In this document: in pieces, positions 24,778 through 33,512 of the stretch
Layout of the letters: each line of letters begins with the position of its first letter
Position numbering within the stretch: position 1 is the first letter of the stretch
From: Clostridiales bacterium
GTDB lineage: Bacteria > Bacillota > Clostridia > Oscillospirales > Acutalibacteraceae
Reading direction: 5' to 3'
Assembly: GCA_012524025.1 (NCBI GenBank)
Contig: JAAYSC010000017.1
Coordinates: forward strand, 1-64,000
DNA length: 64,000 bases
Made by a program: the position numbers and the translations under genes
The notes under the pieces: model-generated
What the model was told of the DNA's origin: nothing
The model's input: only the letters and a program-made list of their open reading frames with translations
Database searches by the model: none

Positions 24778-25641
24778 ATGCTTGGTTATGTTAAAATTTA
24801 TAAGCCTCAATTAAAAATGTACGAGTATGAGACATACAAGGGGTTTTATTGCTCGCTTTGTAAGGAATTGGGTCGCTCATATTCTCATTTGGCACCTATT
24901 TTGCTTAATTATGATTATGTATTCTTATTACTCTTGAAACACTCACTTAAAGAGCAAGCGCCGGCATTTAGCCCCGGGCGCTGTTCATACAATCCCTTTG
25001 TTAAGTGCTCACGCTTTAAAGATGAAGAATTTTTAAAAAAGTGCTCGGACCTGATAATAATTATATCCTACTATAGCTTAAAAGACAATTTGTCTGACGA
25101 GGGTGGCCTTAAAAAACTTTCTTATTTGATTTTTTATCCTGTTTTGCGGCTTATGTGGCGCAAAGCTCGGAAAAGGGCAGGCCAATATGATAGAATAGTT
25201 GCCGATGCCATGCGAGAACAAGCAGAACTTGAAAAACAAAGTGGGCCGAGTATTGATGCCGTCTCGCACCCAACCGCACACGCCTTGGGTCAAATTTTCT
25301 CCGCCGATGAAACAAAGAGTGAACAGAAAAAAATACTTTACACTTTGGGTTACATGTTGGGGCGCTGGGTTTACTTTGCAGATGCAGTGGATGATATAGA
25401 AGACGATATCAAACAAAAAAATTTCAACCCCTTTATGGACCAATTTCTTAAAGATGAAAATAAAGACAAAAGTGAATTCTCCGATTACGCTCTATGTGTT
25501 TTACGCCAAAGTGCAGGTGAAGCAACCTTGGCATTTGAATTGTTAAATGTAAAGCGATACAAAGGTGTATTAGAAAATATTCTCTATGAAGGTTTGGAAG
25601 AAGTGGAAGCCGAAATCTTAAATAAGAGGGGAAAAGATTAG
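24778..25641 (+). CDS. DUF5685-family protein of unknown function
   Basis: Helical soluble protein (287 aa) recognised as DUF5685. It starts MLGYVKIYKPQLKMYEYE and carries a CxxC (FYCSLCKELG, about 23-32) plus further Cys residues around 62-85. A strongly acidic segment, YFADAVDDIEDDI followed by FNPF, resembles the Asp-rich metal sites of all-alpha prenyl synthase-like enzymes; that similarity is my inference only. It is immediately followed (one base) by the J-protein gene and then a membrane protein, a grouping that recurs in Clostridia as far as I recall. Function is undescribed. Confidence 0.8.
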   Translation: MLGYVKIYKPQLKMYEYETYKGFYCSLCKELGRSYSHLAPILLNYDYVFLLLLKHSLKEQAPAFSPGRCSYNPFVKCSRFKDEEFLKKCSDLIIIISYYSLKDNLSDEGGLKKLSYLIFYPVLRLMWRKARKRAGQYDRIVADAMREQAELEKQSGPSIDAVSHPTAHALGQIFSADETKSEQKKILYTLGYMLGRWVYFADAVDDIEDDIKQKNFNPFMDQFLKDENKDKSEFSDYALCVLRQSAGEATLAFELLNVKRYKGVLENILYEGLEEVEAEILNKRGKD

Positions 25642-25642
25642 C

Positions 25643-26266
25643 GTGAAAACACCGTATCAAATTTTAGGGATTCCCGAACAAGCCGATGCGCAGACTGTAA
25701 AAAACGCTTACAGAGAACTTGCGCGAAAATTCAGCGGTGAAAACTATTCGGCAGGCCCTCTTGACGAGATTGCTCAAACCAGGATGAAAGAAATTGACCA
25801 AGCTTATGATGCAATCGTCCAAGCACGCCCTGCGGATTTTCAAGCCGACACAAACTACGGCAAAGCGTCAGGCAGCCGAACCGGAACCTATGCCCGTGAT
25901 TACTCCGATTTGGATGATATCAGAGCAAAACTGCAGGCTGGAAGACTTGATGATGTTCAAATTTTGCTGGATGGCATACCACCTTCAAAAAGAAAGGCTG
26001 AATGGTATTTCTTGAAGGGCACGGTTCATCACCGCAGGGGCTGGCTTGAGGAAGCCTTCAATAATTACAGCAAAGCTTACAATATGGAACCCGGTAATCC
26101 TGAATACAGAAACGCCTATAACAATCTGTCGGCATCTCGCCAAGGGGCACATCGGCAGAGGAGAAGGGCTAAGCGGGGTTGCACGGGTTGCGATATTTGC
26201 ACCGCATTAATATGTGCGGATTTTTGTTGTGAATGTATGGGTTCTGACTTAATCAGGTGTTGTTAA
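25643..26266 (+). CDS. J-domain/TPR protein lacking HPD, with Cys-rich tail
   Basis: Protein of 207 aa. Residues 1-60 form a J-domain (TPYQILGIPEQADAQTVKNA, then ELARKF) but the obligatory HPD is replaced by Ser-Gly-Glu at 31-33. The middle (about 95-170) has helical TPR-like repeats (AEWYFLKGTVHHRRGWLEEA). The last 29 residues contain nine Cys, including CTGCDIC and CCECMGSDL, a likely metal- or cluster-binding end. GTG start with GAGGGG upstream. Loss of HPD means it probably cannot stimulate Hsp70 ATPase. Tightly linked to DUF5685 upstream and a membrane protein downstream. Confidence 0.82.
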   Translation: MKTPYQILGIPEQADAQTVKNAYRELARKFSGENYSAGPLDEIAQTRMKEIDQAYDAIVQARPADFQADTNYGKASGSRTGTYARDYSDLDDIRAKLQAGRLDDVQILLDGIPPSKRKAEWYFLKGTVHHRRGWLEEAFNNYSKAYNMEPGNPEYRNAYNNLSASRQGAHRQRRRAKRGCTGCDICTALICADFCCECMGSDLIRCC

Positions 26267-26278
26267 GTGGGGGTGACT

Positions 26279-26815
26279 ATGAAAAACAGCTCTAAAACCG
26301 CCTTGGGCGGTATCATTGCAGCCTTGTCCTTGACACTTTTGTTTTCTGTATCGATTGTTCCTTTTTTCACATATGCTCTACCGGCAGCTGCGGCGACACT
26401 TTTGATACCGCTTGTTATTGAAGTCAATAAAAGATGGGCTCTGGGGGTGTATGCCGGGGTCAGCCTGCTTAGTTTTTTCATTGTTCCCGACAAAGAAGTT
26501 GCGGTTATGTATGCCGCATTTTTCGGTTATTATGTAATATTGAAATTTTCACTTGAAAGCAAATTCAATAAAGTTATATCTTGGTTGTTTAAATGTGCTT
26601 TGTTTAATATTTCGGCCCTAATCTCTTATTTTTTGATGATTCGCTTTATGGGGATTGAGCTCGATGAGCTTGAAAAATTTGGTATGGTAGCAATTCCCAT
26701 TCTACTTGCTTTGGGCACTTTTGCATTTGTCCTTTATGACATTGCCTTAACAAGGGTAATTTACTACTATCTTGCGAGATGGAGAAAACACATACTAAAG
26801 CTTATAAAATTCTAA
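26279..26815 (+). CDS. Small polytopic membrane protein, ECF S-component-like
   Basis: Hydrophobic protein of 178 aa with five or so membrane segments (for example GGIIAALSLTLLFSVSIVPF, then LPAAAATLLIPLVIEV). The size, opening and topology resemble S-components of energy-coupling factor transporters or related DUF membrane proteins, but I see no conserved substrate motif and no ECF ATPase genes nearby. The ATG at 26279 is used, with GGGGGTG just upstream; a GTG four codons earlier is possible. It is the third gene of the DUF5685 unit. Transport of a small molecule is only a guess. Confidence 0.7.
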   Translation: MKNSSKTALGGIIAALSLTLLFSVSIVPFFTYALPAAAATLLIPLVIEVNKRWALGVYAGVSLLSFFIVPDKEVAVMYAAFFGYYVILKFSLESKFNKVISWLFKCALFNISALISYFLMIRFMGIELDELEKFGMVAIPILLALGTFAFVLYDIALTRVIYYYLARWRKHILKLIKF

Positions 26816-26842: not shown

Positions 26843-26871
26843 TTGTACAGCAACTGCGTTTGGTTTATAAT
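26843..26871 (+). promoter_or_regulatory. Strong putative promoter of the GH109-like/kinase/GH4 operon
   Basis: TTGTAC (26843-26848) and a perfect TATAAT (26866-26871) with a 17-base spacer, 30 bases before the first ATG. No obvious operator palindrome or cre-like site was recognised beside it. Confidence 0.7.
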
Positions 26872-26900: not shown

Positions 26901-28139
26901 ATGGCTAAAGAAAAAACAAATTTTGCAATTATCGGTTTAAGTGGTCGAGGGCTGGGTATGCTTTCAGAATTTGTCAGCATTGAAGGTGTTCAAGTAACCG
27001 CTGTTTGCGATATATATGAAGACCGGGTTGAAAAAGGGGCTAAAATTGTTGAGGAAAAGGCCGGCAACACACCGGACAAATACCTGGATTACAAAGAACT
27101 CTTAAAAAGAGACGATATTGCCGCTGTCTTGTGTTGTACAACATGGATTACACATGCGCGCATTGCCGTTGATTCTATGCGGGCGGGCAAGCATGTTGCA
27201 ATTGAAGTAGGGGGCGCAGCTTCTCTTGAAGAATGTTGGCAAATGGTAAGAGCATCGGAAGAAACCGGTAAGTTTTGTATGCTGTTGGAAAATTGTTGTT
27301 ATGACCGAAATGAGTTGGCGCTTTTCAACATGCAACGCCAGGGCTTATTTGGTGAAATGATACATGCACAGGGCGGTTATTTACATGACTTGCGTGAAGA
27401 AATATTGCAAGGCCGAGAAAACCGCCATGGAAGATTGGTAAACTTTATGAATAGAAACGGTGATGTTTACCCCACCCATCAACTTGGACCCATAGCAAAA
27501 ATGTTTAATATAAACAGGGGTAACAGGCTCTTGACTCTTACCTCAATGGCCAGCAAGGCCAGGGGACTCAATGAAAGAATAAAAAACACCAGGCCTGCGG
27601 ATTATGACCTAAGGGATTTTGCCTTCGCACAAGGCGATATTGTAACAACCATGATTAAATGTGCCCATGGCGAAACCATCTTGCTTACACACGCCTGTAC
27701 TTTACCACGCCCTTATTCCAGGGATTACAGAATCCAGGGCACTAAAGGGATCTGGATGGAAGACGGTAATCTTATTCATCTTGAAGATTTTAGTCCGGAA
27801 GAAAAATGGGAACCTTTTGAAACTTACAGGGAAAAATATGAGCATCCCTTGTGGCGACAATATGAAAAGGATGGTATAAGAACGAGTGGGCACGGCGGCA
27901 TGGACTATTTGGTTCTCTGTGCCTTTGCGGAAAGTGCCATAAAAGATTCAAAACCCCCAATCGATGTTTATGATACAGCCCTTTGGATGTCAATTACATG
28001 TTTGTCAGAACAATCGGTTGCGTTGGGCAGTGCACCTGTTGCAATCCCTGATTTTACCAATGGCGCTTGGATAGAGCGTGAGCCCTTTAGAAGGGGAATA
28101 TATTGCCTGGAAGAAGTATGTGAAGAATTTTTTGAATAA
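26901..28139 (+). CDS. Gfo/Idh/MocA-family NAD-dependent protein, GH109-like glycosidase
   Basis: Protein of 412 aa with an N-terminal Rossmann fold (FAIIGLSGRGLGML) and a Gfo/Idh C-terminal half. Blocks match GH109 NAD-dependent alpha-N-acetylgalactosaminidases: SLEECWQMVRASEETGKFCM, then MLLENCCYDRNEL, GLFGEMIHAQGGYLHDLRE, YPTHQLGPIAKMFNINRG and GHGGMDYLVL. GH109 enzymes use bound NAD to oxidise C3 transiently and hydrolyse the glycosidic bond. No export signal is visible, so it probably acts in the cytoplasm. ATG 26901 has GGAGATG upstream; a start five codons earlier is less likely. First of a three-gene operon with a sugar kinase and GH4. A plain sugar dehydrogenase is the alternative. 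Confidence 0.82.
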   Translation: MAKEKTNFAIIGLSGRGLGMLSEFVSIEGVQVTAVCDIYEDRVEKGAKIVEEKAGNTPDKYLDYKELLKRDDIAAVLCCTTWITHARIAVDSMRAGKHVAIEVGGAASLEECWQMVRASEETGKFCMLLENCCYDRNELALFNMQRQGLFGEMIHAQGGYLHDLREEILQGRENRHGRLVNFMNRNGDVYPTHQLGPIAKMFNINRGNRLLTLTSMASKARGLNERIKNTRPADYDLRDFAFAQGDIVTTMIKCAHGETILLTHACTLPRPYSRDYRIQGTKGIWMEDGNLIHLEDFSPEEKWEPFETYREKYEHPLWRQYEKDGIRTSGHGGMDYLVLCAFAESAIKDSKPPIDVYDTALWMSITCLSEQSVALGSAPVAIPDFTNGAWIEREPFRRGIYCLEEVCEEFFE

Positions 28140-28158
28140 TAAGCGGAGGTAGTTGAAG

Positions 28159-29100
28159 ATGAAATATTTTATTGGCGTTGACGGTGGCGGGACCAAAACA
28201 GAGTTTACCCTTTACGATGAAAACAAGAATGCCTTGGCCACAGTTCTGGGGCCGGGCAGCAATCATGAAAATTATGAAGAAGCTTTTGACAAAGCGGCAG
28301 AAATTATTTGGGACGGATTGACCCGACTTGTTGAAAAGATGAATATTGACATTAAAGATGTCAGCTTTACCTTAATGGGCTTGGCCGGCATAGACCATAG
28401 CTTCCAATATGACGCAATGTGTGAAATCTTACGCAAAAAGGGTCTGGAAAGGTTCGAAATTTTTAACGACGGTTTTATTGTAGTTAAAGCCGGCTCAAAA
28501 AGCGGCGCAGCAATCGGTTTGAATTGTGGCACCGGTACTTGCTGCAATGCCATCGACTCCAAGGGTAAGATGTTGCAGTTGGCGGGTTTGGGTGATTTTT
28601 CAGGTGATGTTGGCAACGGGCAATGGATCGCACTTAAAACTTTTAAGACGATCTATGATCAATTATACTTATTTTTAGACGAAAGCTTGCTGACAAAACT
28701 TTTATTTGAAAAGTTAAATCTCAAAAATCGTGAAGAATTTCTGGGTTTATTGGAAAAACTGGAAAGCGACGAAGCCAATGAACTTATTATGCTGCTTATC
28801 TCTATATTTTTTGAAGCTGCTAACGCAGGGGATAAAGTTACACTTGCTTTGGTTGATGAGATGGCTCTTCGCGGTGCCCAATTGATTGCCGCCCATTGCG
28901 CACAGTTGGATTTTGATTCAGATCCGGTTGAAGTAATACTGTCTGGCTCCATCCACACTAAACTACCCTCGGATGTCTATATTGAAAGACTGATCGAAAA
29001 AACTAAAGAATTGGCCAAGAGGGAGTTTGATTTTATCAAACTGGATAAACCACCCGTTTATGGTTGCATAAATTGGATTTTGCAATCATATAACAAATAA
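28159..29100 (+). CDS. BadF/BadG-type sugar kinase, N-acetylglucosamine kinase-like
   Basis: ASKHA-fold kinase (313 aa) of the BadF/BadG/BcrA/BcrD family, NagK-like branch. Phosphate-binding motif IGVDGGGTKTEF opens the protein. GLAGIDHSFQ, FNDGFIVVKAGS, the second phosphate loop LNCGTGTC and GDFSGDVGNG follow. It should phosphorylate an amino sugar or glycoside at O6 with ATP. Position between a GH109-like glycosidase and a GH4 phospho-glycosidase suggests it makes the 6-phospho substrate of the latter. ATG 28159 has GCGGAGG upstream and is 19 bases after the previous gene. Confidence 0.85.
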   Translation: MKYFIGVDGGGTKTEFTLYDENKNALATVLGPGSNHENYEEAFDKAAEIIWDGLTRLVEKMNIDIKDVSFTLMGLAGIDHSFQYDAMCEILRKKGLERFEIFNDGFIVVKAGSKSGAAIGLNCGTGTCCNAIDSKGKMLQLAGLGDFSGDVGNGQWIALKTFKTIYDQLYLFLDESLLTKLLFEKLNLKNREEFLGLLEKLESDEANELIMLLISIFFEAANAGDKVTLALVDEMALRGAQLIAAHCAQLDFDSDPVEVILSGSIHTKLPSDVYIERLIEKTKELAKREFDFIKLDKPPVYGCINWILQSYNK

Positions 29101-29130
29101 CCAATTAAAACCTTGGAAAGGTGAAATGAA

Positions 29131-30414
29131 ATGAAAGAAATTAATGTAGCTGTTATAGGTTCCGGTAGCACATATTGTCCGGAGCTGATCGATGGATTTA
29201 TAAAGGCGCAAGACAGCCTTAAGCTTAAGAAATTAGCCTTGATGGATATAGATCAACGAAAGAGAGATATAGTAGGCAATCTATGTGTGCGCATGCTCGA
29301 TGAAGCCGATATAGATTGTGAAGTGCTTATGACCGATGATTTGGCCTTGGCCTTGCAAGGGGCAGACTTTGTTGTAACACAAATCAGAGTAGGCAAGTTG
29401 CCGGCAAGGCATCTTGACGAGACCATCCCCTTAAAACATGGCCTAATCGGTCAAGAGACTACGGGAATAGGGGGCTTTTTTAAAGCTCTCAGAACCATTC
29501 CGGTTATGAAAGACATATGCGATAAAATCGAAAAGATTTGTCCCGATGCTTGGTTAATTAATTTCACTAACCCATCAGGCATAATCACTGAATATGTTTT
29601 GAATCATACCAATGTCAAATGCATGGGTTTGTGTAATGTTCCCATAAATATGGTTGACGACACTAAAGAGGTAAGCGGTGAAGACAGCGATATTGTTTAT
29701 CTTGGTTTAAACCATCTCAGCTGGATCACATCTGTAAAAAAAGACGGTGAAGAAATGCTTACCAAGCTATTAGATGAGGGTTTTTCCACAAAAGTAATGG
29801 AAAACATAAAAGATGATGGCTTTTCACTTGAAGCTTTGGCGACTATCGAAGCAATTCCTTCTTCCTATCTTCAGTACTTCTATGGCAGACAAAAAAAGCT
29901 TGACAGTTTGATAGAAGCGCAACAAAGCAGGGCGCAAGAGTGCATTGACATTGAAGAAAGCTTATTAGAACTATATTCGGACGAAAGCATTACAAAAAAG
30001 CCGGACTTGCTCGATAAGCGGGGAGGGCATAAGTATTCTTTGGCAGCTGTATCACTAATAGATGCAATTGCAAATGATACGCAAGCCATTAACATTGTAA
30101 ACATTAAAAACAAGGGTGCCTTGCCTTTCATGGAAGATAATGATGTGGTAGAAGTAGCTGCCTATGTTGGCAAGGACGGTGCGCAAGCGGTTGAAATTCC
30201 GGTATGTGATAACCGCCATATAGTCGGTTTAATGCGCATAGTTAAAGATTATGAAAAGTTCACAGTCCAAGCCGGTGCAAACGGTGATGATAAGGCTGCC
30301 ATGAATGCTCTTATTATCCACCCCTTGATTGGTGACTGGGACAAGGCCGATGCTTGCTACAAGGAAATGAAAGAAGCTCACAAAAGTTTCTTACCACAGT
30401 TTTTCAACAAATAA
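29131..30414 (+). CDS. GH4 family 6-phospho-glycosidase
   Basis: NAD- and Mn-dependent glycosidase (427 aa) of family GH4, closest in feel to 6-phospho-beta-glucosidases. Rossmann motif VAVIGSGSTYCPELIDGF is followed by QIRVGKLPAR, the substrate-binding GQETTGIGGFFKALRT, and NFTNPSGIITEY. The metal-binding Cys is in MGLCNVP (about 168) and the His in GLNHLSW (about 194). It cleaves by transient oxidation at C3. The last gene of the operon, with AAAGGTG upstream and a strong terminator downstream. The exact sugar is not readable from sequence. Confidence 0.9.
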   Translation: MKEINVAVIGSGSTYCPELIDGFIKAQDSLKLKKLALMDIDQRKRDIVGNLCVRMLDEADIDCEVLMTDDLALALQGADFVVTQIRVGKLPARHLDETIPLKHGLIGQETTGIGGFFKALRTIPVMKDICDKIEKICPDAWLINFTNPSGIITEYVLNHTNVKCMGLCNVPINMVDDTKEVSGEDSDIVYLGLNHLSWITSVKKDGEEMLTKLLDEGFSTKVMENIKDDGFSLEALATIEAIPSSYLQYFYGRQKKLDSLIEAQQSRAQECIDIEESLLELYSDESITKKPDLLDKRGGHKYSLAAVSLIDAIANDTQAINIVNIKNKGALPFMEDNDVVEVAAYVGKDGAQAVEIPVCDNRHIVGLMRIVKDYEKFTVQAGANGDDKAAMNALIIHPLIGDWDKADACYKEMKEAHKSFLPQFFNK

Positions 30415-30432: not shown

Positions 30433-30466
30433 AAAAAGGCCGCCTTTTGAGGCGGCTTTTTTATTC
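30433..30466. terminator. Bidirectional terminator between GH4 and beta-galactosidase
   Basis: GCCGCC (30439-30444) and GGCGGC (30451-30456) form the core stem around a 6-base loop, extended by the flanking A and T runs to about 12 pairs. It can end transcription from both convergent genes. Confidence 0.9.
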
Positions 30467-30482
30467 AAAACAGTTAAATTTT

Positions 30483-33512
<3,030 letters not shown>

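Follow-up and report, generated by a model that had tools for sequence, protein, structure and literature searches.

Family GH4 phospho-glycosidases are usually discussed as partners of the sugar phosphotransferase system (PTS), and the E. coli chb operon, with its ChbBCA PTS, ChbG deacetylase and GH4 enzyme ChbF, is the PTS version of the GH4 route. In Klebsiella, the kinase BglK uses adenosine triphosphate (ATP) to phosphorylate glycosides at C6, and the products serve as substrates for 6-phospho-glycosidases, GH4 enzymes included (PMC8660893, PMC10628242). The Bacteroides thetaiotaomicron polysaccharide utilization locus BT4240-50, a mucin locus, combines a sugar kinase with two glycosidases, a GH109 alpha-N-acetylgalactosaminidase and a GH2 beta-galactosidase, and the kinase is significantly active only once the GH109 enzyme has released N-acetylgalactosamine (GalNAc) (PMC11992087). 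We analysed a stretch of 64,000 nucleotides (the window; positions 1 to 64,000 of contig JAAYSC010000017.1, assembly GCA_012524025.1) from a Clostridiales bacterium (the host), in which positions 26901-30414 encode a GH109 relative, a BadF/NagK-type sugar kinase and a GH4 enzyme. We confirm that this trio is real: the open reading frames (ORFs), intergenic gaps of 19 and 30 nucleotides (nt) and the domain matches bear out the families, gene order and tight spacing given by a first-pass annotation of the same DNA. We propose, with about even confidence, that the locus encodes a module for breaking down, in the cytoplasm, an imported glycoside of the N-acetylhexosamine type that carries no phosphate; the module would work without a detectable PTS and have the kinase-GH4 pair as its core. 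Because BglK provides a precedent, phosphorylation followed by cleavage is an established strategy and not itself new; the trio is a new variant of it.

The trio resembles the chb operon in its GH4 enzyme, which is 39% identical over its full length to E. coli ChbF (annotated as a monoacetylchitobiose-6-phosphate hydrolase) and would be expected to carry out the same chemistry on a 6-phospho disaccharide, and in the YdjC-family deacetylase found with some of its relatives; unlike a genome with chb-type PTS coupling, the host has no match for the PTS_EIIC domain (EIIC) or for PTS enzyme I (EI), a BadF kinase always adjoins the GH4 gene, and a GH109-like gene is added. ATP-dependent 6-phosphorylation of a glycoside that feeds a 6-phospho-glycosidase, which we propose for the trio, is shared with Klebsiella; BglK, however, is a ROK kinase, whereas the window kinase is of the BadF/NagK type, from an uncharacterised subgroup, and its setting suggests amino sugars. 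BT4240-50 likewise groups a sugar kinase with a GH109 enzyme and a GH2 beta-galactosidase, as is seen near the trio; in contrast, its kinase is APH-type and forms a 1-phosphate (the window kinase is BadF-type and not an APH-type N-acetylhexosamine 1-kinase), its GH109 enzyme is periplasmic, its import is Sus-type, and no GH4 enzyme is described. In the literature consulted, no characterised GH109 enzyme is reported beside a GH4 enzyme, unlike in the window; a kinase neighbourhood of the GH4 enzyme BglT was sought in the Thermotoga regulon paper, where BglT is not discussed; and no paper describing a GH109-kinase-GH4 trio was found in the open-access literature, subscription papers not being covered.

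The GH4 protein scores above the Pfam cut-offs for Glyco_hydro_4 (198 bits) and Glyco_hydro_4C (163 bits), and its best matches are 6-phospho-beta-glucosidases (330 bits for 1s6y and 256 bits for BglT, 1up7), whereas 6-phospho-alpha members do not exceed 175 bits and non-phospho members do not exceed 79 bits. Its placement in the 6-phospho-beta-glucosidase/ChbF clade, and with it a predicted 6-phospho substrate, is supported by this comparison; GH4 enzymes of the 6-phospho-beta clade need the 6-phosphate on their substrate. The cysteine of LCNVP, the histidine of NHLSW and the tyrosine of SSYLQY have counterparts in the alignment with BglT, and 40 orthologues conserve them; the tyrosine is the one that we take to be the base of BglT. 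The cysteine and histidine are the metal-binding residues of GH4 enzymes (PMC10755693).

Distribution was examined in 300 genomes of the host's family and in a class-wide sample of 391 genomes. As class-wide searches above strict cut-offs returned the host genome only, both for the GH4 orthologue and, save for 28%-identical kinases, for the kinase, we counted within the family, where the GH4 orthologue occurs in 45 of the 300 genomes and in 19 genera. The three genes are associated far beyond chance: GH109 is present in 41 of the 45 GH4 carriers vs. 30 of the 255 non-carriers (p=1.4e-26 at the genome level, a value inflated by relatedness), and the co-occurrence is still strong when counted by genus (17/19 vs. 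19/116, p=6.5e-10). Of 43 public contigs with a GH109 relative, 9 have the same three genes in the same order. At all 43 assessable loci (41, plus 2 read from the other contig end) the gene immediately before GH4 is the kinase, usually with a gap of 10-50 nt, and the kinase is itself immediately preceded by GH109 in 30 of the 42 genomes that could be assessed; among the 12 genomes without GH109 at the locus, 7 have a close orthologue elsewhere (63-69% identity), 4 have a distant GH109 only (41-49%), and in 1 none was found. At two loci (L082 and L084) the flanking genes are unchanged and GH109 is missing between them. The first-pass annotation had held that its reading would fall if the three genes were not conserved together; in co-occurrence and in adjacency across the family the trio survived this check, and what has to be given up is the fixed order GH109-kinase-GH4, as GH109 is off the locus in 12 of 42 genomes and the kinase and GH4 are never split. 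The core is the kinase-GH4 pair, with GH109 as a frequent partner that can be moved or lost. In one genome of a carrier genus (G645, locus L126), in which PTS genes are present, GH109 and the kinase are followed by a GH35-like gene in the place of GH4.

In the host genome, which is 97.5% complete, profile searches gave no match for PTS_EIIC (PF02378) or for the N-terminal domain of enzyme I (PF05524), each of which was matched in 7 of 14 control genomes; these two were the components searched for, and other PTS permease families are excluded solely through the missing enzyme I. Because the GH4 clade needs the phosphate and the host has no detectable EI or PTS_EIIC, the ATP-dependent kinase is the likely source of the 6-phosphate for GH4, in agreement with the PTS-independent supply that the first-pass annotation had claimed. 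Within the family, EIIC is found in 2 of 45 carriers vs. 91 of 255 other genomes (p=6e-6), and enzyme I in 3 of 45 vs. 109 of 255 (p=6.5e-7). The carriers that have EI or EIIC (G399, G404, G451 and G609) are all among the 5 assessable genomes without a close GH109 orthologue; this contrast, 4 of 5 vs. 0 of 37 with the orthologue (p~4.5e-5), spans about three independent lineages and is a lead only.

The kinase matches the BcrAD_BadFG domain (84 bits), with the ATP-site motif and the NagK/MurK fold present, and scores 81.6 bits on the curated NagK equivalog NF046058, whose cut-off is 370; it is a NagK relative and not an assigned NagK. Its nearest solved relatives by sequence are a clostridial kinase for N-acetylmuramic acid (MurNAc) and N-acetylglucosamine (GlcNAc), an archaeal hexokinase and human N-acetylglucosamine kinase (NAGK). 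The best PDB folds for its AlphaFold model (mean predicted local distance difference test score, pLDDT, 90.5) include Clostridium acetobutylicum MurK with GlcNAc (template modelling score, TM-score, 0.83/0.85), Sulfolobus hexokinase and human NAGK. MurK (8zo3) and NAGK, the closest solved relatives by sequence and fold together, are only ~20% identical to the window kinase. Given the score far below the NagK cut-off and next best relatives outside the host's family of 28% identity in the class-wide sample, the kinase belongs, by its sequence, to an uncharacterised subgroup; it is probably an N-acetylhexosamine 6-kinase, and possibly one that acts on a glycoside. A distant relative of the kinase in another family (L162) adjoins a GFO_IDH-like gene and a gene that reads as NagB-type.

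The GH109-like protein scores 219.4 bits on Glyco_hydro_109_C (cut-off 27) and 43.2 bits on GFO_IDH_MocA (cut-off 24), and its alignments to the GH109 alpha-N-acetylgalactosaminidases 2ixa (309 bits) and 6t2b (265 bits) span almost the entire protein. With these enzymes, and with the sulfoquinovosidases that depend on nicotinamide adenine dinucleotide (NAD), it shares the fold, the use of NAD and the GH109 catalytic Tyr/His/His. The catalytic residues proposed for AmGH109A are Tyr226, His259 and His404, the last in the GGHGG loop (PMC10755693). In the alignment with 6t2b, onto which the AmGH109A numbering was mapped by the 33-residue Tyr-His spacing, they correspond to residues within the motifs GGYLHDLR, YPTH and SGHGG of the window protein, and at least 95% of 26 GH109 orthologues share the catalytic residues of GGYLHDLR, YPTH and GHGG. 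The description of the two NAD enzymes as intact redox glycosidases thus holds for their catalytic residues, which are present in both GH109 and GH4 and conserved among the orthologues. We rejected the family name as proof of GalNAc specificity, as the enzymes of this clade could differ in what they cleave. The protein begins MAKEKTNFAIIG and has no evident signal peptide, and we therefore take all three trio proteins, which are small, to be presumably cytoplasmic.

Genes for NagA and for YdjC-family deacetylases among the neighbours point to substrates of the N-acetylhexosamine type. NagA is divergent to the trio in 5 loci of 2 genera of relatives (the one representative tested is over the curated cut-off), and NagA-like genes were recognised by eye, from the protein start, beside a GH109 homologue at L011, L012 and L024; a YdjC/ChbG-like carbohydrate deacetylase (~23-29% identical to ChbG) follows the cluster in 3 loci of 3 genera. 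NagA is found in 35 of the 45 GH4 carriers, and the host has NagA and one Glucosamine_iso-family gene away from the cluster. The carriers include ruminant-gut and other animal-gut genomes; amino-sugar glycans are common in animal guts.

From the protein families, the catalytic residues, the linkage and co-occurrence of the genes, the absence of EIIC and EI matches and the presence of NagA and Glucosamine_iso, we infer a route whose predicted elements are the glycoside as kinase substrate, the identity of that glycoside, what GH109 acts on and the sequence in which the steps follow. A non-phosphorylated substrate, for example a GlcNAc- or GalNAc-containing disaccharide, would be imported; the kinase would use ATP to place phosphate onto O6 of the non-reducing sugar; and GH4 would split the resulting 6-phospho-glycoside through oxidation at C3 with the help of NAD, followed by elimination, hydration and re-reduction. 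A terminal N-acetylhexosamine beyond the reach of GH4 would be trimmed by the GH109-like accessory, which would need no phosphate on it beforehand, and the sugar so freed would enter the same kinase; NagA and then a NagB-type isomerase would convert the hexosamine 6-phosphate to fructose 6-phosphate. We favour the kinase-GH4 core because GH4 needs the phosphate, the host has no PTS supplier of it, and the pair is unsplit in GH4 carriers. The strict three-step order of the first-pass annotation, trimming, then phosphorylation, then GH4 cleavage, would be one form of these models, and the data do not single it out. If the route is true, a kinase-GH4 unit in genomes without detected EIIC and EI would show that 6-phospho chemistry can be kept without a PTS, and the BadF/NagK family, known for free amino sugars, would gain a kinase that acts on disaccharides or glycosides. 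We offer more tentatively, as a possible but doubtful extension, that these kinases form a new BadF-type subfamily that acts on intact amino-sugar disaccharides and, with an obligate GH4 partner, makes up an ATP-driven substitute for the PTS in Clostridia that lack it, GH109 being dispensable where a PTS is present.

Several observations weigh against the proposed route. The PTS contrast is weaker when counted by genus (p=0.013 for EI and p=0.08 for EIIC), related genomes not being independent; NagA and YdjC genes adjoin the cluster in a minority of loci, and neither is next to the trio in the window; kinases of the NagK/MurK type are known as free-sugar kinases, and the substrate predicted here is substituted at C1; and no transporter gene adjoining the trio was identified in the window, nor one that recurs beside it in relatives.

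The main rival to a kinase-GH4 core is salvage of free amino sugars, which we consider unlikely: GH109 would free terminal alpha-GalNAc or GlcNAc from imported fragments of a glycopeptide or oligosaccharide, the kinase would take the free sugar only, and GH4, co-transcribed with them, would act on a separate 6-phospho substrate. The intact catalytic residues of GH109, the closeness of the kinase to the free-sugar NagK/MurK kinases, and the GH2 beta-galactosidase gene convergent downstream in the window, with relatives near the cluster in 7 loci of 3 genera, are all consistent with salvage, and its logic is seen in BT4240-50, with its GH2, GH109 and GalNAc kinase (PMC11992087). However, in genomes where PTS_EIIC and EI were not detected, salvage leaves nothing to supply GH4 with a phosphorylated substrate, although GH4 is never separated from the kinase and GH109 is the gene that 12 of 42 loci lack. 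A second rival, recycling of the cell wall, is improbable: a GlcNAc/MurNAc disaccharide or muropeptide fragment would be phosphorylated in MurK-like fashion, cleaved by GH4 and passed to NagA. By sequence, the solved protein closest to the kinase is Clostridium MurK, which phosphorylates MurNAc and GlcNAc, and in several genera the trio stands behind DUF5685, DnaJ-like and membrane-protein genes in a stretch that reads as housekeeping; but the neighbours read included no recognisable MurQ-type etherase or muramidase, no systematic search having been made, elsewhere the cluster adjoins beta-galactosidases and other sugar genes, and we know of no GH4 enzyme with a 6-phospho-MurNAc substrate, which also counts against recycling. 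It is very improbable that the GH109-like protein acts as an ordinary sugar dehydrogenase, forming or reducing a 3-keto sugar, with the trio as a redox pathway free of hydrolytic and kinase steps: GFO_IDH_MocA proteins include glycoside 3-dehydrogenases, and these are among its weaker matches, but its score on the GH109 C-terminal family (219 bits against a cut-off of 27), its near full-length alignment with the alpha-N-acetylgalactosaminidases with the three proposed catalytic residues kept, and dehydrogenase NCBIfam models that all fall well below their cut-offs, none coming near, argue otherwise.

The coding regions of all three proteins look intact, and a Shine-Dalgarno-like GGAGG or GGAAAGG stands in each gap within the trio (Table 1). 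The single strong promoter of the first-pass annotation could not be upheld, because such matches are in mild excess in the region (43 found vs. 30 expected) and the spacing upstream of the trio is not conserved: in the window ~85 nt, including the TATAAT-type match, separate the trio from the gene before it, and among the 9 relatives that share this membrane-protein gene, 6 have only 10-27 nt between it and the trio, so that the promoter-bearing gap is not kept. In such relatives the trio may be part of a longer transcript. The inverted repeat downstream, with its T-run, could serve both strands as a terminator.

Table 1. Features of the trio locus in the window (positions are those of the window)
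Feature	Position	Strand	Remarks
GH109-like NAD-dependent protein (GFO_IDH_MocA N-domain and Glyco_hydro_109_C)	26901..28139	+	likely ATG start at 26901, stop ends at 28139
BadF/NagK-type sugar kinase	28159..29100	+	ORF list places the start at TTG 28153
GH4 enzyme, predicted 6-phospho-beta-glucosidase/ChbF clade	29131..30414	+	Pfam domains, PDB matches
Sigma-70-like promoter match, TGTACA-16-TATAAT	26844..26871	+	10/12 matches; plausible
Terminator-like inverted repeat	30439..30456	.	between convergent GH4 and GH2 genes; + strand GCCGCC-loop-GGCGGC, then TTTTTT

The convergent GH2 gene is LacZ-type and occupies 30483-33494. Upstream of the trio, 24778-26815 encodes a DUF5685 protein, a DnaJ-like protein whose tail is rich in cysteine, and a small membrane protein; this order is kept in several genera, where the trio mostly lies <30 nt from the membrane-protein gene. 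The membrane protein was considered as a component of a known transporter and rejected, as it has no Pfam match. Downstream of GH4, a DapA-like gene (DHDPS-family aldolase-like) is found at 6 loci in several genera (e.g. L107:10276-11193, L115, L114, L105 and L102); its assignment as a sialate lyase was rejected, as it reaches no curated cut-off, whether for DapA or for sialate lyase. A beta-propeller protein of ~700 residues, with Reg_prop repeats only, is encoded directly after GH4 in 7 genomes (L114:10241-12439, L088, L089, L096, L102 with 3 tandem copies, L105 and L109). Far from the trio, at 735-2528, the window encodes a protein with a PPMGWSSWNTF motif that looks like a GH27-type alpha-galactosidase.

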